64,000 nucleotides of DNA from Ignavibacteria bacterium (GTDB lineage Bacteria > Bacteroidota > Ignavibacteria > Tepidaquicellales > OLB5), in NCBI GenBank assembly GCA_020852705.1, contig JADZAP010000040.1:1-64000 (forward strand). The letters are read 5' to 3'. The notes beneath the pieces are model-generated. The model did no database searches. It was not told the DNA's origin and saw only the letters and a program-made list of their open reading frames with translations. Positions 44,881 through 50,150 of this stretch are shown here, one piece after another (within the stretch, counting starts at the first letter, position 1; each line of letters begins with the position of its first letter). Both the position numbers and the translations under genes were made by a program.

Positions 44881-44929
44881 CCTCATCCCCTAGCCCCCTC
44901 TCCTATTATGAGAGGGGGGAGAACTGAGG
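44881..44929. repeat. GC-rich palindromic repeat
   Basis: ccccctctc (44894-44902) and gagaggggg (44910-44918) form a perfect 9-bp stem with a 7-base loop. Outer arms cctca (44881-44885) and tgagg (44925-44929) extend the palindrome. Its C/G content is far above the surrounding DNA. It resembles the dispersed cctca..ccctagccccctctcc intergenic repeats known from several bacterial genomes. It lies between the enoyl-CoA hydratase and the protease gene. Confidence 0.75.
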
Positions 44930-44985: not shown

Positions 44986-45786
44986 TTACTTATGTTTCCA
45001 TTCAGGTTTCCGCTTTTCAACATAGGCATTCATACCTTCTTTCATATCATCGCTAGCAAAAAGAAGGTAAAATGCTTTACGCTCATACTCTAAGCCTCCC
45101 TCAATTGTTGTATCATACGATTTCATTATTGCATCTTTAGCCATCTGCAGAGCCAATTGAGGCATTGAAGCAATTTCCTTTGCCAGTGCCTGTGCTTCTT
45201 CCAGATAAACTTCATCATCTGCAAGGCGTGTTACAAGCCCTGCTTCAAACATTTCCCGGGCACTATACATTCTGCCGGTTAAAATCATTTCCATAGCTTT
45301 TGCCTTGCCTATGGCACGTGTTAAACGTTGAGTGCCGCCTGCACCTGGAATAATACCAAGTTTAATTTCAGGCTGACCGAATTTTGTGCAATCGGCTGCA
45401 ACAATCATATCACAAGCCATTGAGAGCTCACACCCGCCTCCTAGTACAAATCCACTGGTTGCGGCTATTATAGGTTTTTTAACTTTACGAATTTTATCCC
45501 AAACTGCAAACTGATTGCGTATATACATATCAATAGCAGATTGTGTTGCCATTTCTTTAATATCAGCCCCGGCAGCAAACGCCTTTGCATTTCCGGTAAT
45601 AATAATACATCCAATTTCGGAGTTTTTATCAAATTCAGAGAGCACATTAAGAAGTTCACCCATTAACTCAATATTCAGTGCGTTAAGGACATCAGGACGG
45701 TTTAACTGGATTTGTCCAACTTTAAGTCCCTTAGGGTTTTCTATCTTTGTTACTATTATATTTTTATAATCGGGTAGTTTTGACAT
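44986..45786 (-). CDS. Enoyl-CoA hydratase/isomerase family protein
   Basis: 266 residues of the crotonase fold. Features are FAAGADIKEMA (oxyanion-hole region), GFVLGGGCELSMACDMIVAA (catalytic-helix region with Glu), GQPEIKLGIIPGAGGTQRLTR and the Glu in EAGLVTRLADDE. The pattern with both catalytic Glu regions fits a true enoyl-CoA hydratase of fatty-acid or amino-acid degradation. No other beta-oxidation gene lies nearby. Confidence 0.92.
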   Translation of the reverse strand: MSKLPDYKNIIVTKIENPKGLKVGQIQLNRPDVLNALNIELMGELLNVLSEFDKNSEIGCIIITGNAKAFAAGADIKEMATQSAIDMYIRNQFAVWDKIRKVKKPIIAATSGFVLGGGCELSMACDMIVAADCTKFGQPEIKLGIIPGAGGTQRLTRAIGKAKAMEMILTGRMYSAREMFEAGLVTRLADDEVYLEEAQALAKEIASMPQLALQMAKDAIMKSYDTTIEGGLEYERKAFYLLFASDDMKEGMNAYVEKRKPEWKHK

Positions 45787-45861
45787 AAAACCTGTGAAAT
45801 TTGCTTATTTATAGCACAAAAGTAAGGAATTTGAGGGATAGTTACAATGAGAAAAGATGAG

Positions 45862-46521
45862 TTAATTGCAATAATCTAATTGTTGTTTAATATAGCATAA
45901 ACAACCATCAAGCCAATTTTTTACTGTTTTATCATTTAAATTATTTAAATGTGAATCAGTTTTACCATCTTGCCATTTTGAAGCCATTGCAAAATGAAAT
46001 TTTTGAATTTTAAATTTTGAGGATTTAGTGGTATCAAACAAATCTCTAGATTGTTCCAACTTTAAAAGGCTGTTGAAATCATCAATATTTTGGGCAACTA
46101 TTTCAGTTCTTGGGTGAACTTGCCAATGAGGTTGAGCATGAATACTACTCAAAGTATTTGTCCATTCGGCTCTAATTATAAGTTCACTTATATCATTCTC
46201 AAAATTAAAAATTTTTATATTAACAGATTCTAAATCATATGTAAAGTTTTTAGCCGTAATTACTTTTTCTTTAAAATTTATAGATACATTAATCCAAAAG
46301 CATTTATAAAATTTTACTGTTTTTATTAACGTACCAGATTCAATAGGAAATTGATTTTCTATCGCACCTTTTTTTGCAACTGAAGAATAAAACTCTTTAT
46401 TGTCTAGATAAGGGATAATCTCAATTTCAGTCGTGTCAGAGTACTTTCTTAATATTGAAGCACATAAATTAGCAACTTTATCTGGATTTACCATTTTATA
46501 ACTCAAAATTTTTGATTCCAA
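45862..46521 (-). CDS. Unrecognised protein paired with a DNA methyltransferase
   Basis: 219 residues, no family recognised. The first half is beta-rich (IKTVKFYKCFWINVSINF). The second half has a cluster of His, Trp and Pro (HAQPHWQVHPRTEI, KIQKFHFAMASKW), and the C-terminus is WLDGCLCYIKQQLDYCN. The His-rich spacing could hold a metal or a catalytic site, but this is speculation. It overlaps the end of the methyltransferase gene by 26 bases in another frame, so the two are co-transcribed and probably act together, for example as a restriction or defence partner. Confidence 0.6.
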   Translation of the reverse strand: MESKILSYKMVNPDKVANLCASILRKYSDTTEIEIIPYLDNKEFYSSVAKKGAIENQFPIESGTLIKTVKFYKCFWINVSINFKEKVITAKNFTYDLESVNIKIFNFENDISELIIRAEWTNTLSSIHAQPHWQVHPRTEIVAQNIDDFNSLLKLEQSRDLFDTTKSSKFKIQKFHFAMASKWQDGKTDSHLNNLNDKTVKNWLDGCLCYIKQQLDYCN

Positions 46522-48853
46522 ATAATTGTAAGATTATTTCATAAAGGTTTTTATAGTCAATAATTTGGCCTAATGATAGTTTTTTCCCAATTTCTTTTAA
46601 TTTTGTGAATTCCTGGGTATTAAATAAAATAAATAAATTAGGGATTGGGATTTCATGACAAAATTTACTAGAAAGATACCATGAATTAGATGATATTTGT
46701 TTTGAATAAATATATAAAAGTTCATTAAAAAAATTGCAGTTAAAAATTGCAATATATGCGTAATACATATCATCTGTAAAATCTTTTTTAGGTAACCATC
46801 CATGTCCACGCTCAATGATAAAATCTCCTTTTTTATCAAAGGCAAATGAACCTGCATTACCAAATTCTGTAGAAACTATTTTTGGTGATTTTTGTACTAG
46901 CCATTTTCTTTCTCTTGTCAAATCCCACCATTTATATTTATTCTCAGTTACTTCCTTTCTGTTCTTTAAGAAATTCCTATTAGGTTTTAATCGATATTGA
47001 TAAAAATAACTTGCTGTTTTTTGTAAATCAGTTTCTCTAGTAATTTCTTTTAACTCTTCACCATAAGGATACCATATATAATCTACAATTTTTAATCTTC
47101 CATAGTTAATTGCTTGATTAGTAATAGCAGGTCTAAAATATTTCTTTTCATCACTAGATAATTTTGAATGAAACAATTTATCAATTAGAAATACAGAGTT
47201 TTTCCCAGTACGAACTCCTTGTCTTATTTGGAAAATATCCTTAATTCTTACAAGAGAGTTGGATAAAATTCTTTTTTCTAATTCTTGTCTTAACTCGTAG
47301 GATTTATATGAAATTGGATTAATGTGGGATGAATTTAAATTTATATTGTAAACGCTGTAAGTTTTTTCGCTAATTGGCAGTAAATTGTTATTTCTGAAAA
47401 TTCTTAAGCCACGTATAGCATCAGAAGCTGAATGCAATTCATTTTTTGCCCATAAAATAGTTGTCTGATTTTTTGTATTTGAATTACTTTTTTTTGCTAC
47501 TATAATGCTAGCATCCGTCAAAGCTCCATAAAATAGATAACTACCTAATTTTCCTATTAGTTTTATTTTCAAATTTGATACTAATGTTTCTCTTAATTCA
47601 TTATAAGAATCCGCATTTAACAATGAAGAAGGAATTACACAACCGAATATGTTATCTTCATTTAATGATTGATATGCTTTCCATAGAAATGCACTTGCTA
47701 AATTTGGATTCTTTTTATAATTTAAATCTAATATTTCTCTTACTACATTTCTTTGATTTTCTTCAAGGTTTTCCCAGGAAATATATGGTGGATTCATTAA
47801 AAGTAAATTGACATTATCTGGCCACTTTTCAAGTAATGAATCAATAACAGTCGTTAAATTAATTTCAATATTGTTAGTGCCCCAATCATTTTTTTCGAAG
47901 TTTAAGATAAACTTTGCCATATCGATTGCTATCGTTGAAATATCCCAACCGATGCAAATTATTTTACCTTTAAAATTGTTTATCCTTAATTGTCTAATTG
48001 CTTCTTTAAGAAATTCTCCAGACCCACATGCAGGGTCAAAAATGGTAATAGTTTCAGGAAATTTATTTTCAAAATATTTTAAACATTCTTCAACAATACT
48101 TCTTGTTAAAAATGAAGGAGTAAAATAAACTCCTTTATTTGTAACAGTATCACTTTTTACTTTAGTAGCTGGTAAATCCCATAGTTGAGTTTGTGTATTT
48201 AATATAGCTTCAAAATGCGCTTCTTGGAATAATCTACCTGATGAATGCCTTAAAATTAAATTCAAATCTGGTTTCAAATTACGACTAGTAATGCCATTAT
48301 TTATTGTTTTAATTAAAATGTTTAATGCATCATTTTTATTAGTTGTTATTATATCTTTGTTGATTTGTTCTAATCCCCATTTATCTAGATCAAAGTTTTC
48401 GCTGTCTTCATTAGTTGCAGCAAGCAAATATAATAAAGCTTTTAGGCTTTCTTTTCCATCGGTTTTTTCTAAAAGATTTTGTAATTGTCTGAAAATTTTC
48501 ATAATAAAATTAATTATGGAATTTTCTTTAGTCGGGTTTATTAATCCAAGGTATTTGTAAAATAAATTTAAATTTTCTGAGATATTATTGTATTCGTATT
48601 CTTCAACGTTATTTTTATCCCATCTATAAACAAATACTTTCTTATTGTCAAAATTAATAAATGATTCAACATCTGACGACCATGAATAATTTAAATATTT
48701 TTCTTTATTAAGTTCATTTTTAAAGTCAATGCAAAAGCTATTATTCCCACCATTTAATAATATAAATTGTTCAGGGGTATAGTTAAAAAGCCTTAAAGGA
48801 TATAAACCTAGCGAATTTTGCCATTTTTCAATATTTTTTATTCCATTTTGCAT
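46496..48853 (-). CDS. Eco57I/TaqI-like N6-adenine DNA methyltransferase
   Basis: 785 residues. A ~240-residue N-terminal region of unclear fold comes first. The methyltransferase core follows: GVYFTPSFLTRSIVEECL, motif I FDPACGSGEFLKEAI (~residue 272) and motif IV MNPPYISW (~residue 353). A TaqI/Eco57I-like target-recognition part starts near residue 535 (IRQGVRTGKNSVFLID) and continues to the C-terminus. No PD-(D/E)xK nuclease motif was found in the N-terminal part, so it does not look like a complete type IIG enzyme. Predicted to methylate adenine in a specific site; cleavage, if any, may need the overlapping partner gene. Confidence 0.85.
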   Translation of the reverse strand: MQNGIKNIEKWQNSLGLYPLRLFNYTPEQFILLNGGNNSFCIDFKNELNKEKYLNYSWSSDVESFINFDNKKVFVYRWDKNNVEEYEYNNISENLNLFYKYLGLINPTKENSIINFIMKIFRQLQNLLEKTDGKESLKALLYLLAATNEDSENFDLDKWGLEQINKDIITTNKNDALNILIKTINNGITSRNLKPDLNLILRHSSGRLFQEAHFEAILNTQTQLWDLPATKVKSDTVTNKGVYFTPSFLTRSIVEECLKYFENKFPETITIFDPACGSGEFLKEAIRQLRINNFKGKIICIGWDISTIAIDMAKFILNFEKNDWGTNNIEINLTTVIDSLLEKWPDNVNLLLMNPPYISWENLEENQRNVVREILDLNYKKNPNLASAFLWKAYQSLNEDNIFGCVIPSSLLNADSYNELRETLVSNLKIKLIGKLGSYLFYGALTDASIIVAKKSNSNTKNQTTILWAKNELHSASDAIRGLRIFRNNNLLPISEKTYSVYNINLNSSHINPISYKSYELRQELEKRILSNSLVRIKDIFQIRQGVRTGKNSVFLIDKLFHSKLSSDEKKYFRPAITNQAINYGRLKIVDYIWYPYGEELKEITRETDLQKTASYFYQYRLKPNRNFLKNRKEVTENKYKWWDLTRERKWLVQKSPKIVSTEFGNAGSFAFDKKGDFIIERGHGWLPKKDFTDDMYYAYIAIFNCNFFNELLYIYSKQISSNSWYLSSKFCHEIPIPNLFILFNTQEFTKLKEIGKKLSLGQIIDYKNLYEIILQLFGIKNFEL

Positions 48854-48932
48854 AATTATGTAAAATAGTGATTAATTTAATTACTTTTAAGTTATTAAAT
48901 CAAATATTAGTATAATTTATTTTTTATGTGTA

Positions 48933-49235
48933 TCATTTCAAGATATTTTTAAATTTCTTCATCTTATCCTTTTCGCCCTCTTCAATAATTTCCAGCTTTC
49001 CTAAAAACTGTACATTTGCTTCGCCCTCGATCTTCACTCCACCCTTAATTGTTACATTTGAATTTTTACCAAACACAACATTTGCACCTTTGCCAATTAT
49101 AACTTTAGGTTTTGCCTGTTCTGGCTCTATTACCTTGTAAATAGTTGAGCAGTAGCTGCATTTTATTTTACTCTCACCAAGATCAGTGAAATCATGTGAG
49201 CCGCATTGTGTACATTCATATTTTTGTAATTGCAT
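48933..49235 (-). CDS. Zinc-ribbon protein with short beta-solenoid-like stretch
   Basis: 100 residues. Two CxxC pairs (CTQCGSHDF and CSYCSTIY) form an N-terminal zinc ribbon. Then come four short strands with a regular hydrophobic/Gly/Asn rhythm (VIIGKGANVVFGKNSNVTIK, GGVKIEGEANVQFLGKLEI), like a mini beta-solenoid, and a charged tail (EEGEKDKMKKFKNILK). Function unknown. A GGAG site with good spacing supports the start. Confidence 0.7.
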   Translation of the reverse strand: MQLQKYECTQCGSHDFTDLGESKIKCSYCSTIYKVIEPEQAKPKVIIGKGANVVFGKNSNVTIKGGVKIEGEANVQFLGKLEIIEEGEKDKMKKFKNILK

Positions 49236-49307: not shown

Positions 49308-50150
49308 TTATTTTATCCCAGGTAACAAATGATACAGATAATTTAAAGCACCATCAGTTTCATCCCAAAATCTTTTATAAATTTCTTTAAATTCATAGGC
49401 TTCCACCTCACCTCCTGATATTACACCAATGTTATGGGATAAAAATTCTTTTAGCGGAAACTTTTTTGAGCCTGCTAACAGTTCAAGGGCAACATTTGGA
49501 AAATTTTCTATACCGGATTTCAGATATCGGGATGCATTATCAAAATCAAATTTTTTATAATAAATTAAACCCAAGCTGTAAAAAAATTCAGGAGATATAT
49601 CATCATTATAAATATTGTAAAGCTCAATAATTTTTTTAAGTTTATTCTGTAAAAAGCAGCATTCAGTTAGAAGGTATCTAGCGCCCATGTTATCTTCCGG
49701 ATTTACATTGATAATAAAGTTCAGCAAACCTGATGCCTTTTTTAAGTTACCTGCATACATGCTTTGCAAAGCCCAGTTAAAATATCCTCTTAACAGTTGC
49801 CTGTTTTCAACTATTCCCCAAGGCAATTTATCTGATTTAGAATTAAAATTTTTTGGAATAACTGACTCAACAATTTTGAATGCTTTAAAGTATGATTCCT
49901 TACTGCGTTTTAAATTCTGAATTTTTTCATAATAGTAACCAAGTGCTAAATATGCTTCAATATGATCATCCGGAAACTTATCCGCTAAGCGTTTCATTAT
50001 AACTACTCCTTCTAAAGGCGAAATTTGTAAAGTTTCTAATGCATATAAATATTCCTCATGAATTTCTGAAATTTCTTTTGGTAAGACCAATTCCCATTCA
50101 TTTTCTGAAATTTTTTCCAGCTTTAGATTAGTGTTGATTTTATTTTCCAA
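49308..50150 (-). CDS. TPR-repeat protein
   Basis: 280 residues, no signal peptide. Degenerate tetratricopeptide repeats are seen (EAYLALGYYYEKIQNLKRSKE, WALQSMYAGNLKKASGLLNF, YSLGLIYYKKFDFDNASRYL). Such folds act as protein-protein scaffolds. It ends in a stretch of unknown function and starts six bases after the EamA transporter stops, so both are probably in one transcript. Confidence 0.75.
   Translation of the reverse strand: MENKINTNLKLEKISENEWELVLPKEISEIHEEYLYALETLQISPLEGVVIMKRLADKFPDDHIEAYLALGYYYEKIQNLKRSKESYFKAFKIVESVIPKNFNSKSDKLPWGIVENRQLLRGYFNWALQSMYAGNLKKASGLLNFIINVNPEDNMGARYLLTECCFLQNKLKKIIELYNIYNDDISPEFFYSLGLIYYKKFDFDNASRYLKSGIENFPNVALELLAGSKKFPLKEFLSHNIGVISGGEVEAYEFKEIYKRFWDETDGALNYLYHLLPGIK

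Follow-up and report, generated by a model that had tools for sequence, protein, structure and literature searches.

Organization of the locus

The stretch of DNA analyzed here (the window; 64,000 nucleotides of a contig from an Ignavibacteria bacterium) carries a pair of adjacent ORFs on its minus strand, a methyltransferase gene upstream and a small gene downstream, flanked by genes for an enoyl-CoA hydratase (44986-45786) and a small zinc-ribbon-like protein (48933-49235); their features are collected in Table 1. Both ORFs, together with the motifs quoted for them in a first-pass annotation of this DNA, were confirmed in the ORF list with translations, and both are kept in six other loci. 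Since their order and sequence are conserved in those loci, and since comparison of the two closest copies shows purifying selection on each of them (dN/dS of about 0.12 for the methyltransferase and 0.31 for the small protein), neither represents a chance ORF.

The overlap of 26 bases that had been reported between the two genes depends on a TTG start for the small gene and is probably a start-codon artefact. An ATG at 46494 lies one base past the methyltransferase stop codon (TAA-A-ATG), leaving no overlap; the same stop-to-ATG spacing is seen in a related locus of genome G613 (TAG-A-ATG), and the ATG matches the starts of relatives, with the sequence M[VA]NP in the window and in genome G464. 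Judged from this junction, the shared spacing and the aligned starts, the small protein is more likely to have 210 residues without overlap. A near-perfect AT-rich palindrome at 48845-48866 spans the start codon of the methyltransferase gene, as a possible, putative autoregulatory operator. Beyond the other end of the pair, a GC-rich hairpin at 44886-44918 (CCCCCTCTCCTA/TATGAGAGGGGG) belongs to a dispersed repeat of 40-50 bases, with many copies in this genome and its congeners.

Table 1. Features of the two-gene locus, in window coordinates. Residue numbers of the small protein follow the 219-residue form, here and in the text.
Feature	Coordinates	Strand	Remarks
Left flank	45787..45861	.	Alignable to the empty sites of congeners until about 45845, directly before the stop codon of the small gene
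Small partner gene	45862..46494	-	210 aa from the likelier ATG; conserved in 7 loci
Small gene, TTG-start form	45862-46521	-	219 codons
HFAM motif, small protein	45985..45996	-	Residues 176-179
HxQPHW motif, small protein	46123..46140	-	Residues 128-133
R-x-E-W motif, small protein	46162..46173	-	Residues 117-120
N6-adenine DNA methyltransferase gene (predicted)	46496..48853	-	785 aa: N-terminal extension, catalytic domain and target-recognition part
Recognition segment, apparently replaced	46886..47065	-	About residues 597-656; differs between two otherwise ~78% identical relatives
NPPY, catalytic motif IV	47783..47794	-	Residues 354-357; NPP[YF] in 7/7
DPACGSG, AdoMet-binding motif I	48017..48037	-	Residues 273-279
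N-terminal extension	48149..48853	-	Residues 1-235; conserved nuclease residues absent
FQEAH motif, family signature	48215..48229	-	Residues 209-213, ahead of the FTP motif; FQEA invariant in 7/7

Catalytic region and N-terminal extension of the large protein

The large protein matches the Pfam families N6_Mtase (5.8e-19) and Eco57I (1.7e-9), as well as type II methyltransferases in PADLOC, and its residues 240-782 align to M.BseCI, the closest solved relative (PDB, 2.6e-26). Methylation activity is likely, because the FTP-type motif, motif I (DPxCGS) and motif IV (NPP[YF]) are intact in all seven members of the family. Over the aligned region the protein resembles the M.BseCI/TaqI-like gamma-class adenine methyltransferases in both catalytic motifs and recognition part; it differs in its additional N-terminal extension of 235 residues, and in having a small partner that, in the libraries searched, resembles no known endonuclease. 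Type II endonucleases are often unrecognizable by sequence.

The extension, which is absent from M.BseCI, gave no family match. Its invariant residues are mainly hydrophobic or aromatic, and the sole charged position conserved in the seven members ahead of an RHxxGxLFQEA motif is D/E at 150. A conserved D/E/K set of the PD-(D/E)xK kind was not found in residues 1-195 of these members, whereas four viral type IIG-like controls carry PD-x(n)-(D/E)xK N-terminally, and hhalign gave a probability of 2% or less for alignment of the large-protein N-terminus with those controls. For both reasons the large protein is unlikely to be a complete type IIG enzyme. The first-pass annotation had seen no PD-(D/E)xK nuclease in it, and had named a nuclease domain in its N-terminus as the finding that would point to such an enzyme; the comparison of seven members and the controls bears out its view. 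The extension may represent a degenerate nuclease-derived domain.

Enzymes of type IIG (Eco57I, MmeI) and PglX of BREX likewise carry a gamma-class methyltransferase behind an N-terminal domain, with specificity in the same chain. The pair departs from type IIG in the missing PD-(D/E)xK set and in its separate, conserved small protein. In BREX, PglZ and a BrxC-type ATPase accompany PglX. The earlier suggestion of a BREX-like affiliation is not supported, as neither PglZ, BrxC nor any other BREX gene was seen with any copy of the pair, scores of the large protein against PglX models are far below cut-off, and at three loci (window, G067 and G654) only the two genes lie between unrelated genes. 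The catalytic part also shows weak similarity to MAD2, the methyltransferase of MADS, a multi-gene system of which no other gene is present at the window locus. A MAD2-like methyltransferase was observed separately on a viral contig (L013:6858-9029; NCBIfam MADS2 4e-166, below cut-off).

A family of small partner proteins

The seven small proteins share 14-55% pairwise identity and nine invariant residues (W76, R117, W120, P131, H132, W133, H176, W183 and W203); position 119 is E or D, and His occupies position 191 in six of the seven. "His-rich", as the protein had been described, is loose, the conserved set comprising R117, E/D119, H132 and H176 along with five Trp. To judge from this pattern, the conserved residues look more like an active site or a Trp-containing ligand pocket than like a generic adaptor, with the first four as candidate active-site residues.

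Neither the small protein nor profiles built from four and from five members gave a usable match in Pfam, NCBIfam, PADLOC, PHROGs or PDB; the small protein matched no PD-(D/E)xK, HNH, GIY-YIG or PLD family and no helix-turn-helix, and an AlphaFold2 model from the single sequence was unusable (pLDDT 34). From these profile searches and this model, its fold or catalytic family is left unassigned, and it appears to represent a family previously unclassified in the libraries searched. A match to PHROG 3767 (E 0.0013), obtained with one of the seven members over residues 35-117 and lying outside most of the conserved motifs, was discounted.

The HxQPHWH sequence of the small protein resembles HxPPHFH, and a DUF4160 profile alignment falls on that motif, so that its P-H-x-H pattern could be taken to indicate a TumE- or DUF4160-type unit akin to toxin-antitoxin systems. 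We consider this highly improbable, as profile-profile comparison by hhalign gave probabilities of only 1.8% (DUF4160) and 0.2% (TumE), no such Pfam match appeared up to E 10 for any of the seven members, and both size and partner differ; homology to these families is accordingly not supported. DUF4160 proteins are themselves common in the source genome and its congeners (26 of 59 genomes, with up to six matches per genome).

A second possibility assigns methylation to the large protein, and perhaps also restriction by way of an N-terminal domain that is degenerate or unusual; the small protein would then tune the activity, the specificity or the expression of the large one. The extension does occupy the place of the type IIG nuclease, an insignificant profile alignment (1.4% probability) touches it, and strict linkage of the two genes, as described below, would suit any subunit. 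Nevertheless, an accessory or regulatory role is unlikely given that residues 1-195 of the seven members lack a conserved acidic/lysine set, that the small protein has a conserved R/E/H/H set which looks more enzyme-like than adaptor-like, and that it gave no helix-turn-helix match.

A different type of partner is exemplified by R.PabI, which has a half-pipe fold and acts by base excision. Searches of the small protein against PDB, R.PabI structures included, returned only unrelated weak matches up to E 10, and it differs from R.PabI both in lacking detectable homology and in that no Tyr is conserved among the seven members. The two systems are nevertheless alike as low-G+C, mobile methyltransferase pairs with a partner unlike any known restriction enzyme (PMC10273834). 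R.PabI was shown to be a restriction glycosylase that excises bases and has a new fold, and so provides a precedent in which the unrecognizable partner of a mobile methyltransferase carries new chemistry (PMC10273834).

Linkage and distribution of the pair

Six further loci carry the pair, four of them in genomes from the same phylum as the window and the other two on alphaproteobacterial plasmids. A sample of 395 genomes of the phylum yielded one further full-length methyltransferase (G067; 39% identity) with a relative of the small gene directly after it, 391 genomes of the window's class yielded three more pairs (G613, G654 and G464), and the plasmid collection contributed those of Sinorhizobium mexicanum and Sphingomonas sp. 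NY01. The genome samples cover the window's phylum, so that distribution outside it is known from plasmids alone. In all seven loci the methyltransferase gene precedes the small gene, the two touching or overlapping, which upholds the initial description of a two-gene unit.

Whether homologues of the small protein occur mainly beside this methyltransferase had been put forward as a check on the pairing, and the counts are uniform: every match of the small-protein profile lies beside it in the 391 class genomes (4/4) and in 394 phylum genomes (1/1, only G067), as do both matches of the Sphingomonas small protein in the plasmid search (2/2, only the two plasmids already named), with none apart from it. 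Within the collections searched, the small protein is thus confined to the neighbourhood of this methyltransferase. Two weak profile matches (E about 0.002), one in G532 and one in G605, were fragments within larger frames and were taken as chance, and further queries of the plasmid and phage collections revealed no relatives besides the two plasmids. The distance matrices of the two families correlate (Spearman 0.83, a value reached in 27 of 5040 permutations), with some contribution from shared host history. We found no description of the methyltransferase/small-protein pair in the open-access literature.

Mobility and genomic surroundings

The cassette has a G+C content of 26.4%, compared with 32.6% for the window, and is near the low extreme of the window's 3-kb windows, the lowest of which it covers. 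In four congeners (G002, G009, G011 and G012) the same site is empty, with about 105-200 bases between the neighbouring genes, and in two others it holds different genes. G008 (L039:1112-4077) has a C5-cytosine methyltransferase followed by a GHKL-ATPase/REase_II-like protein, and G010 (L040:1454-5458) a NACHT-type STAND protein of 1334 residues, without a PADLOC match. The GHKL-ATPase protein is like type II restriction enzymes of PADLOC and has a weakly Shedu-like C-terminus, and the C-terminus of the STAND protein appears by eye to be a restriction-type nuclease domain. No target duplication was resolved at the insertion site. The site between the enoyl-CoA hydratase and zinc-ribbon genes is a defence hotspot in congeners; the first-pass statement that no other mobile or defence gene is nearby is therefore correct inside the window but misses the character of the site. 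Beside the hotspot lies a gene of 280 residues (49308-50150), of repeat type (TPR-like, by eye), which seems strain-specific, since in congeners the zinc-ribbon and transporter genes on either side are no more than about 100-300 bases apart.

Two of the other copies lie beside defence-related genes. The G464 pair is downstream of a DruE-like helicase gene (1e-193), at a gap of about 950 bases, and the S. mexicanum pair lies convergent to genes of the PDC-S28 and nSTAND3 types. The pair does not fit Druantia, of which DruE is the constant component: a DruE-like gene lies beside the G464 copy, and none is present in the window, nor next to the pairs of G067, G654, S. mexicanum or Sphingomonas. 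The G464 region (L056:27-5464) encodes, ahead of the DruE-like helicase, a protein of 220 residues that has zinc-finger-like Cys/His motifs, an arrangement that possibly constitutes an unusual Druantia type. The pair stands alone between unrelated genes at three of the loci (window, G067 and G654), from which it follows that two genes should suffice for function.

A solitary regulatory methyltransferase, co-transcribed with a gene of some other role, would account for the fact that no recognized nuclease is adjacent. Such a non-defence function is quite improbable for a pair that is linked in 7/7 loci across phyla, patchily distributed and low in G+C, that lies where congeners have other defence-type systems, and that has copies beside defence genes.

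Proposed function and source of specificity

The reading we favour, with a probability of about one half, is that the pair constitutes a restriction-modification-like cassette spread by horizontal transfer; its methyltransferase would both mark self DNA and determine specificity, with the small protein as effector. It draws on the uniform gene order in seven loci, the confinement of the small protein to this methyltransferase and the matching distance matrices; on the low G+C content, the occupation of the same site by defence-type systems in congeners and the DruE or nSTAND3/PDC-S28 neighbours; and on a large-protein N-terminus devoid of a nuclease set, together with a recognition segment that is swapped while the core of the small protein stays. 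Weighing against it are the lack of a match to any nuclease or enzyme fold in the profile searches of the small protein, the divergence of the small protein's N-terminus, and a family of only seven sequences. What the comparisons establish is the linkage and mobility of the two genes, the intact methyltransferase motifs, the missing type IIG nuclease signature and the defence-type surroundings in relatives; methylation, defence function, effector role and shared specificity are what we infer from them.

As proposed, the large protein would methylate adenine at a specific site using its BseCI/TaqI-like domain for catalysis and its C-terminal part for recognition, thereby marking self DNA, and the small protein would serve as restriction effector, recruited to or licensed at unmethylated sites that the methyltransferase recognizes. 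As in enzymes of type IIG and type I, specificity would be a property of the methyltransferase chain, but the effector would be a separate protein. If the small protein is indeed the effector, it would represent a new family of restriction effectors, the system would be among the smallest that modification-based defence allows, and the replaceable recognition segment of the methyltransferase would make the pair retargetable.

The methyltransferases of G613 and G654 are about 78% identical save for a recognition block of ~60 residues, where identity falls to 10-35%, a pattern suggestive of a replaced recognition segment. Their small proteins retain 65-90% identity in the best-conserved stretches of the core and C-terminus, and 20-50% in the N-terminus and loops. 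More generally, one small-protein motif set is kept across partner methyltransferases with different recognition segments. The simplest inference from the replaced segment, the retained core and this common motif set is that the methyltransferase provides specificity and that the small protein acts with it; since the N-terminus of the small protein also diverges between G613 and G654, it may have some independent specificity.

These comparisons also bear on a classical type II arrangement, in which the small protein would work alone, as an ordinary site-specific endonuclease that recognizes the methyltransferase's site independently but has diverged too far to be identified. Sequence similarity among type II endonucleases is low and their subunits are of about 18-42 kDa (PMC4081073), the small gene adjoins the methyltransferase gene, and its product evolves the faster of the two. 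However, endonucleases of unrelated specificity are generally dissimilar in sequence (PMC4081073), yet the small family keeps its single motif set, and it lacks a match to any of the four nuclease families named above; on balance we regard this arrangement as rather unlikely. Within the favoured reading of a restriction-modification-like cassette, a more specific form is put forward tentatively, as possible but well short of probable: a split two-protein system in which the methyltransferase is the sole carrier of specificity, the effector has a new fold or active site (R/E/H/H with a Trp-rich pocket) and acts on unmethylated targets, and a segment swap retargets the system with the effector unchanged. 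The G654 copy is preceded, directly upstream, by a class A beta-lactamase-like gene (L055:8363-9187) that scores below family cut-offs and is possibly shortened.
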